DNA of 64,000 nt from Methanosarcina vacuolata Z-761 (GTDB lineage: Archaea > Halobacteriota > Methanosarcinia > Methanosarcinales > Methanosarcinaceae). This document shows, one piece after another, positions 3,408 to 62,625 of this stretch (positions within the stretch are counted from its first letter, which is position 1; every line of letters begins with the position of its first letter). The position numbers and the translations under genes were made by a program. Where the stretch lies: positions 2,976,001-3,040,000 of the forward strand of contig NZ_CP009520.1 in NCBI RefSeq assembly GCF_000969905.1, written 5' to 3'. The notes under the pieces are model-generated. The model saw only the letters and a program-made list of their open reading frames with translations, did not search any database and was not told where the DNA came from.

Positions 3408-4107
3408 CAGAACCCCCCTATGAAAATAGGGGTTTACGCAATATGAATTTATTGCATATTCCTCTTTCTGGAATTTTTTGCCAGATTAACGCAAGTATAC
3501 TTCACCCATAATGTCGAGATTGATATAATTACTATAACTTAGCTGCTGCCTGTTAAACTGAGTCCATTAATTGACATCCAACATAAGCTAACTGATAGAG
3601 TTAAACTGAAATATCTATTTAACAGCGTCTAATAGCGTCTAATAGTTGTCTAATATCTGCCGTGAGTGCCTATCAGATAAGACCTGCTGCTGCTTTCGAA
3701 TTTACTTTGATTTTCATTTTACAGTATACCTTTGAGGAAGTACGACCTCAACAAAAGGCAGCCTTTTACCCCTTAATCATATAAAAAATAATTCATTTTG
3801 AGCCAAAACTTATATCCTATCAGGAATAATATATTTGGTAGCTTGTTGTAGTATTTTGCAGCGAGGTCGGACAGGTATGATTTTTAAGCAATACAATCTT
3901 TTAGCTTAAAACGCCTTTATCTGAGGTCCTGTTCGGGGGAATTGATACGTTGTCAGTTAAAGGTCAAAAACGGCTTTTAAATGGAACTCAAGGTTGGGAT
4001 CAGTAAGTTTTTCTGTACTGCTGGATATTCTTTCAGGTTCTTTGTGTACTGTCAGAATATCTTTTCGATTCCAGGGCTTTTGACCGCCTGATCTTGCAGT
4101 TTTAAAA
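3408..4107. other. Intergenic gap, promoter side of iscS and of the zinc-ribbon pair
   Basis: No convincing gene. The gap is AT-rich with a run of near-repeats (gcgtctaatag, about 3625-3650). A GGGGGAATTGATACG ribosome-like site at about 3935-3950 leads only into frames of 12-18 codons. The gap separates divergent transcription units, so it should hold the promoters of iscS (minus) and the zinc-ribbon pair (plus). Confidence 0.5.
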
Positions 4108-4272
4108 ATGGAAATCCAAGGGGGATTAGTTACGAATCGGCTAAAAATATGTCCAAAGTGCCATGCCAGATTAAAAGTGAGCTCAGATGGAAAGATAGAA
4201 TACTGTAGTGTTTGTAAGTACTGGACAAAAGTGGGTACCGCAAGGCTCGATTCTATCATGATTTACGGGTGA
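4108..4272 (+). CDS. Zinc-ribbon microprotein A1
   Basis: A 54-residue protein with two CxxC knuckles: KICPKCHARLKV and, 14 residues on, IEYCSVCKYWTK, followed by TARLDSIMIYG. Four cysteines at this spacing predict one zinc ribbon. It is clearly paralogous to the 46-residue protein at 62313-62453 (shared CPxCH, YCxVCxYWT, TARL). Start is uncertain: the ATG at 4108 has no ribosome site, whereas AAGGGGG lies 7 bases before an in-frame ACG at 4132 that aligns with the Met of the paralogue. The next gene begins 9 bases after the stop, so the two are an operon. Function unknown; small zinc ribbons often bind nucleic acid or partner proteins. Confidence 0.75.
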   Translation: MEIQGGLVTNRLKICPKCHARLKVSSDGKIEYCSVCKYWTKVGTARLDSIMIYG

Positions 4273-4281
4273 GGACCCTGC

Positions 4282-4512
4282 ATGAAAAATGAAGATATTT
4301 CTATGTTTTGCAGCGTATGCCAGACAATGTTAAAACGTCAAGTCCTGGGTCCTAATGTCTTCTATTATTGTCGAAACTGTGGAAGTATGATTTCGGAAGC
4401 ATACTTATCAGGGGGAGTAAATATCTTCCACACTCAAAAACCGACATCTATAGACCCGACATCTTCGCCTTCAAACCCCATGAAGACGCCTGAAACTGTA
4501 ATAGAGACTTAA
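4282..4512 (+). CDS. Zinc-ribbon microprotein B1
   Basis: A 76-residue protein with a single zinc ribbon, MFCSVCQTMLKRQVLGPNV then FYYCRNCGSMISE, and a Pro/Ser/Thr-rich tail of about 35 residues that looks disordered. It matches the 54-residue protein at 62461-62625 over the ribbon (QVxGxNVFYYCxxCG). The second gene of a two-gene operon with the A1 ribbon upstream. Function unknown. The repeated pairing at two loci suggests that A and B act together. Confidence 0.78.
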   Translation: MKNEDISMFCSVCQTMLKRQVLGPNVFYYCRNCGSMISEAYLSGGVNIFHTQKPTSIDPTSSPSNPMKTPETVIET

Positions 4513-6038: not shown

Positions 6039-6092
6039 ATCATATCTCCTTTATGAATAGAATCAACTTACTCACTCACAAACTGTTGACCC

Positions 6093-6420
6093 GCAACCGT
6101 TGCGCCGGTTGATCACGCCGGATAGGGTTTGGGGATAAGGTTCTCAAACTCAAACTTTTTCCGGGTTTTCGGTCAAGCCTTTTTTGAAAAGGGTTGTGCC
6201 ACAACCGTTGCGCCGGTTGATCACGCCGGATAGGGTTTGGGGATAAGGTTCTCAAACTCAAATGGTCAGGGTTTTTGGTCAAGCCTTTTCAAAAAACTGC
6301 TTTCCCGAAATCGTTGCGCCGGTTGATCATGCCGATAGGGTTTGGGGATAAGTTCATCAAATTCGAACTTTGCTTCGTTTTTGGGGTTTTCGCACAAACT
6401 TTTTTTGAAAAGGCTTGCGG
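6093..6420. repeat. 109-bp repeat family, array A (three copies)
   Basis: Three head-to-tail copies begin near 6093, 6202 and 6311. Each contains CAACCGTTGCGCCGGTTGAT, then cacgccggatagggtttggg, gataaggttctcaaactc, and a poly-T/poly-A inverted stretch (ggtcaagccttttttgaaaa). The first motif can fold as CAACCG/CGGTTG. The same family is found in inverse orientation at 32705-33066. The third copy is the most diverged. It lies upstream of cobT. Confidence 0.9.
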
Positions 6421-41685: not shown

Positions 41686-41950
41686 GTGCGACAAGAAGTT
41701 ATAAAACGTATTGCTTAGACGCTATCTCTTCCGCTTGAGATAATCCTACTAAGATATGTGTTGATAGTAGCGTCAATATGTGAAGCTCTTAGGACAACGT
41801 GGAAAGTCTCTAGTCCAAAACCAGACAATCCGCCATACGTGCCATGAAGAATCAAAAATGAACCACCGCATGAGTCGTCAAGCGTACAAGCGAAACTGGA
41901 CTAATACGCTTTTGGGTTAGATGGACGGTACGCAATTATTGAAATATAAA
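41686..41950 (+). mobile_element. 5' fragment of a group II intron (domain I)
   Basis: The sequence GTGCGACAAGAAGTT at 41686 is the classic 5' end of bacterial/archaeal group II introns. It is followed by domain-I-like sequence: gcttagacgctatctcttcc, agtccaaaaccagacaatcc, gccatacgtgcc, aaccaccgcatgagtcgtca, agcgtacaagcgaaactgga, ctaatacgctt. After about 41950 the similarity stops: no reverse transcriptase and no domain V (the conserved AGC-bulge hairpin) is seen. So it is a truncated, immobile remnant. Confidence 0.7.
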
Positions 41951-62312: not shown

Positions 62313-62453
62313 ATGCCTTTTTTAAAATATTGTCCTGAGTGCCATTCTAAACTCGAAGATGATCTCTTCGAGAAATTTCAGTATTGTCCTGTATGTGGGT
62401 ACTGGACAAGAAAGGAAACTGCAAGACTTGAGCCATTAATAATCATGGAGTGA
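62313..62453 (+). CDS. Zinc-ribbon microprotein A2
   Basis: 46 residues: MPFLKYCPECHSKLEDDLFE then KFQYCPVCGYWTRKETARLE and PLIIME. Two CxxC knuckles 13 residues apart form one zinc ribbon. AAGGGGAG lies 9 bases before the ATG. It matches A1 at 4108-4272 in CPxCHxxL, YCxVCxYWT and TARL. The B2 gene begins 7 bases after the stop. Function unknown. Confidence 0.82.
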   Translation: MPFLKYCPECHSKLEDDLFEKFQYCPVCGYWTRKETARLEPLIIME

Positions 62454-62460
62454 GACCGAA

Positions 62461-62625
62461 ATGTTTGAATCTTCTGCAAAGTGTGTCCGATGCGGCACAC
62501 CTCTTAGAAAGCAGGTAATCGGTTCAAATGTATTTTATTACTGTAAAAAATGCGGGTGTACATCTTCGGCTATTTCTGCCAGTACATCATCTCAAAGTGC
62601 AATTCAGCCGACAAGTCATTTTTGA
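62461..62625 (+). CDS. Zinc-ribbon microprotein B2
   Basis: 54 residues: CVRCGTPLRKQVIGSNVFYY then CKKCGCTSSAISA, with a Ser/Thr/Gln-rich tail. Matches B1 at 4282-4512 over QVxGxNVFYYCxxCG, but its tail is shorter. GTGAGACCGAA before the ATG spans the A2 stop, consistent with coupling. Function unknown. Confidence 0.82.
   Translation: MFESSAKCVRCGTPLRKQVIGSNVFYYCKKCGCTSSAISASTSSQSAIQPTSHF

Follow-up and report, generated by a model that had tools for sequence, protein, structure and literature searches.

The results of this work suggest that positions 3805-4512 of the window (the whole stretch of 64,000 nucleotides of Methanosarcina vacuolata Z-761 that was analysed) form a translationally controlled microprotein operon, where a structured leader RNA precedes a tiny zinc-ribbon gene (A1) starting at a near-cognate codon, ACG, with a second such gene (B1) coupled behind it. 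We give this reading as a whole a probability of roughly 0.6. By their conservation among relatives, A and B are real microproteins, far beyond what chance would produce. The features concerned are collected in Table 1.

Table 1. Position of the operon, its leader and the second gene pair in the window.
Feature	Position	Strand	Basis
Promoter-like BRE/TATA element AAAACTTATATCC, upstream of leader	3805..3817	+	conserved in orthologue upstream alignment
Conserved structured leader RNA, about 190 nt upstream of ACG	3825..3942	+	covariation
Leader helix P0	3842-3850/3857-3865	+	
Leader helix P1	3868-3875/3928-3935	+	
Leader helix P2	3882-3889/3904-3911	+	
Leader helix P3	3913-3917/3923-3927	+	
Second part of 5′ leader, predicted long-range stem and hairpins	3985..4107	+	RNAalifold consensus, 12 close orthologues
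GGGGG, putative Shine-Dalgarno of A1, 7 nt before ACG	4120..4124	+	first four G invariant in 34/34 aligned orthologues
ACG, inferred A1 start codon	4132..4134	+	comparative
Microprotein A1, 46 aa, CPxCH...CxxC zinc ribbon, conserved TARLDSIMIY tail	4132..4272	+	sequence comparison
A1 stop overlapping B1 Shine-Dalgarno, TGAGG	4270..4274	+	sequence; TGAGG in 67/127 pairs
Microprotein B1, 76 aa, CxxC...YYCxxCG zinc ribbon, variable Ser/Thr-rich tail	4282..4512	+	
Microprotein A2 of pair II (downstream of ppsA), 46 aa, starting at ATG	62313..62453	+	
Microprotein B2, 54 aa, pair II	62461..62625	+	

An earlier, sequence-only reading had described two A-B pairs, at 4108-4512 and 62313-62625. All four open reading frames are there, the motifs CPxCH, YCxVCxYWT and TARL are common to A1 and A2 and QVxGxNVFYYCxxCG to B1 and B2, and the assignment to zinc ribbons is backed by the cysteine pattern and by profile matches. 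That the pair is present twice is true as far as these two go, but the same genome has A seven times and B three times, B always coming directly after an A, with a third pair at 3692066/3692236 (G000:C2) and four A genes lacking a B. The suggestion that the unit was duplicated as a pair has to be given up in its recent sense, as the pairs are old paralogues that kept separate syntenic sites across genera: pair I is convergent with cobT and pair II lies downstream of ppsA. One solo A copy of this genome (L003:1668-1700) retains a remnant of a B start, ATGAAGAATACTGAGATTTTTAAT, and therefore probably derives from an A-B pair through loss of B. Elsewhere in the window, a 108-bp unit containing GC-rich inverted repeats, CAACCGTTGCGCCGGTTG, is repeated in tandem about 2.6 times at positions 6090-6371, just upstream of cobT, and positions 41723-41809 match the Rfam family group-II-D1D4-7 (group II intron) above its gathering score.

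Of the 112 Methanosarcinaceae genomes, A is present in 97 and B in 92, with named contigs from Methanosarcina, Methanococcoides, Methanolobus, Methanohalobium, Methanosalsum and Methanomethylovorans. In profile searches through 238 genomes of the class, B is confined to that family, and A also occurs, always without B, in 16 of 17 genomes of f4, another family of this order, one further match being weak (G183, E 4e-4). The viral contigs searched held no relatives of A or B, hence no sign of a viral gene. The search for adjacent pairs in relatives, which the sequence-only reading had proposed, found A immediately upstream on the same strand for 123 of the best 150 B matches in the class (98 from coordinate lists, 24 from fetched loci and one, G054, in L121). 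Of the 27 unpaired B genes, 23 belong to a single solo-B group whose tail reads ...CV, preceded in the loci read by a different protein of about 55 aa; in Methanolobus-type loci (L176-L180, L211) this neighbour is conserved and carries an FMIGG motif near its C-terminus. Counted from the other side, B follows in 127 of 200 distinct A loci and is absent from 73, and there are cases where B has decayed behind an intact A (L032, L244) or is missing altogether (L039). The pair is thus a real arrangement, yet A can persist alone. Extra tandem A-like copies lie upstream of the intact A in some Methanolobus loci (L104:548-984; also L088, L107, L116); in most of them the third cysteine is changed (QHREIC) and the tail is broken, as in decaying or specialised duplicates.

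These counts bear on an explanation that is compatible with translational control, namely that A and B are the two obligate subunits of one zinc protein and that their pairing is the main point. The dominance of A-B order among the best B matches and the coupled TGAGG junctions, where the Shine-Dalgarno of B often overlaps the stop codon of A, are what such a protein would lead one to expect, whilst the solo A and solo B groups and the decay of B next to a retained A are not. Nor does AlphaFold2 place an interface between them: for an A-B read-through (TGA taken as W), it returns a pair of ribbons that make no contact and an A tail that is disordered (pTM 0.34); an alignment that included B-only rows was set aside, since these rows fell onto A. 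B is modelled as a beta-hairpin ribbon. We therefore see the two-subunit protein as possible, with odds clearly below even; the idea of a two-part unit survives as a frequent gene arrangement and probably loses its obligate character. The profiles of A and B can be aligned with one another at a probability of 90%, so both may stem from one ancestral ribbon.

As to their kind, each protein has four invariant cysteines, with glycine after only some of the C(P)XC pairs, and both would be generic four-cysteine zinc ribbons akin to the ones in TFS/RPB9 and Fpg; all scores are low, and no membership is claimed. The best PDB match of the A profile is RpoM-2/TFS4 (7oqy_Y, E 0.0017), its best value against Pfam RPB9 is 2.7e-4, the match in P0001 staying below the cut-off, and RPB9/TFS chains are weak matches (E 0.008-0.04) to a model of A and B in tandem. 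At these low scores A comes nearest to the N-terminal ribbon of TFS/RPB9; unlike TFS, both A and B are without the C-terminal TFIIS ribbon with its acidic pair, and an ordinary TFS with the DE pair is encoded elsewhere in the genome. B2 alone of the two B proteins in the window exceeds the Pfam cut-off for zf-FPG_IleRS (PF06827; 23.6 against 21.3 bits), a domain matched at E <= 0.01 by 4 of 16 B members, though B differs from proteins of that sort in standing alone at 54-76 aa. Searches of Pfam and NCBIfam returned no specific family for A or B, and a DNA-ligase match of A2, lying exactly at the cut-off, was judged spurious.

Another close comparison is with the C(P)XCG zinc finger micro-proteins of Haloferax volcanii (e.g., HVO_2753 and HVO_0758), which are single-domain, of about 70 aa or less and without annotated function (PMC6562870). 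A and B are likewise small, single-domain, built on two paired-cysteine motifs and without annotated function, and A (44-47 aa) and B2 are within the 70-aa limit, which B1 exceeds. They differ in that A has CPxC[HKN] rather than CPxCG, and in the A-B pairing, the ACG start and the leader; no family-level sequence match between these micro-proteins and A or B was found. M. mazei sORF_06, a stand-alone product with four clustered cysteines (PMC11456600), is a possible lead to a solo A protein. MtrR, a 49-aa oligomer, was set aside as a relative, being described as membrane-located and as binding the Mtr complex; the part of the source available mentions no zinc finger of its own (PMC13370731).

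Alignment of the 330 nt before the ACG in orthologues revealed the promoter-like element, whose role is suggested by the archaeal promoter consensus and would put the transcription start at about 3835-3842, as well as conserved inverted repeats. The latter belong to a leader whose helices P1-P3 form a three-way junction. In an alignment of 28 sequences made without regard to structure, 88.7% of cells in the helices are paired, against 34-52% when the partner is slid, a lead that is expected in part because the structure was drawn from the window sequence. Both sides have changed in 8 pairs and 23 cells, where shuffles gave 5.5 and 7.6, and variants of the outer helix are G-U 25 times and A-C 6 times, an excess that fits an RNA of the plus strand. 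Searched with a covariance model, 32 of the 112 genomes yield a single strong copy each (28 of them from genus g1, four from g5), nearly all of the matches belonging to the set that built the model. In 31 of the 32 the copy lies ahead of an ACG-start A, in nearly all of them about 290-310 nt upstream of the codon; the exception is G094, where the leader is present but no A was found past it, on a short contig that ends soon after. The leader matches no Rfam family, and an upstream open reading frame within it was rejected, as its ATG is not conserved. Taken together, covariation and placement make it very probable that the leader is functional. The predicted fold of the second part is less well supported than the leader core, and this part is deleted in L029, so it is not always needed.

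Conservation of such a leader is relevant to another possibility, in which ACG and leader only fix a low dose of A and B, with neither feedback nor sensing. Near-cognate starts generally reduce initiation, TTG and GTG starts recur among other A genes, and orthologues in other genera are without a detected leader, all of which a fixed dose accommodates. What it does not call for is a conserved, covarying, single-copy leader before this gene alone: across the 112 genomes the covariance search found no copy ahead of pair II or of any solo A gene. We consider a merely fixed dose rather unlikely. Pairs II and III and the pairs of other genera have ATG or TTG starts and no detected leader, so that the control proposed here is not general to the family.

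The start codon is the other pillar of the translational-control reading. The sequence-only reading had let A1 begin at ATG 4108; the conserved position for the start is ACG 4132-4134, which gives a protein of 46 residues, like A2. In solo A genes the start is an ATG placed six codons ahead of the first cysteine, exactly where pair I has ACG, and most other A members have ATG or TTG at this site. ACG occupies it in 41 of the 200 distinct A loci, in 37 of which GGGGG lies ahead (the site AAGGGGGNTTANTNACG occurs once in the window, with 0.01 expected). Among these 37 genes ACG is invariant, whereas only 2 of their 107 later Thr codons are ACG; since the genomes are related, these are not 37 independent events. 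Eleven of the 37 lack an in-frame ATG, GTG or TTG anywhere from the preceding stop codon to the first cysteine, as is also the case for two solo A genes with GGAGG before ACG. At the syntenic site convergent with cobT the codon is ACG in 30 loci; the four from Methanosalsum and Methanohalobium show ATG there, and L245, a Methanosarcina-like contig, shows GTG. Exchange of ACG with ATG or GTG at one site is the behaviour expected of a start codon. Downstream of ACG, a pN/pS of 0.21 among 34 orthologues indicates clear purifying selection on the protein. Comparative evidence of this kind makes initiation at ACG highly probable. Among the orthologues of one solo A gene, GGAGGTTTATTT lies ahead of ACG in L251 and L257 and of ATA in L254, where L004 has ATG; the first three are possible further near-cognate starts.

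The in-frame ATG eight codons upstream, shared by the window and many close relatives, would allow ACG to be merely Thr 9 of a longer protein. The comparison leaves this very little room: L016, L028-L035, L185 and others lack that ATG or have it in another frame, the supposed extension suffers frame-breaking indels among relatives, ACG shows no synonymous change when other Thr codons do, and syntenic orthologues have GTG or ATG in its place, so that the reading appears close to refuted. Editing of C to U in the mRNA, which turns ACG into AUG in plant organelles and would account for a conserved ACG precisely at the start site, is hardly credible here, as we know of no such mRNA editing in archaea.

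If these elements work together, the promoter would drive a transcript, from its predicted start, with a 5′ leader of about 290 nt and a conserved folded core; ribosomes would bind GGGGG and initiate A at the near-cognate ACG, and B would start at its ATG from its own Shine-Dalgarno on the stop codon of A, an overlap that probably makes translation of B depend on that of A. The simplest reading of a structured leader together with a poor start codon is translational control, by which output would be kept low and adjustable. By their predicted fold, A and B are of a kind that may dock on RNA polymerase, ribosomes or nucleic acid, and feedback through A, B or the process they serve would be the likeliest logic of the control. 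It is also the weakest step of the scheme, and is put forward tentatively, by analogy. In bacteria, infC, the gene of initiation factor IF3, starts at AUU and ribosomal-protein genes have feedback leaders; here, too, a small gene sits behind a conserved near-cognate start and a structured leader. The differences are that this operon is archaeal and would use ACG, that its products are not known to act in translation, and that the feedback is a guess.

Non-canonical translation in archaea had, according to a 2021 review, been demonstrated only at elongation and termination, with no programmed initiation event (PMC8211752), and aIF1 discriminates against non-AUG starts (PMC6237735). A search limited to one literature collection found no description of an ACG start codon in archaea. 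The unannotated small open reading frames reported by a Ribo-seq study of M. mazei have ATG, TTG, GTG and CTG starts only (PMC11456600), hence genes starting at ACG may be missed generally. In its boldest and still doubtful form, the proposal is that an ACG start fixed across Methanosarcina and two sister genera is read under a new leader RNA, with the zinc-ribbon pair regulating its own translation through start-codon stringency; if true, archaea would thereby have their first known case of non-canonical initiation that is programmed. Having a conserved ACG start, such a gene would be a natural reporter of archaeal start-codon selection, and the leader is a candidate cis-regulatory RNA, structured and new, in a methanogen that is amenable to genetics. 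Together, ACG start and leader, if real, would represent a new mode of translation control in the archaea.
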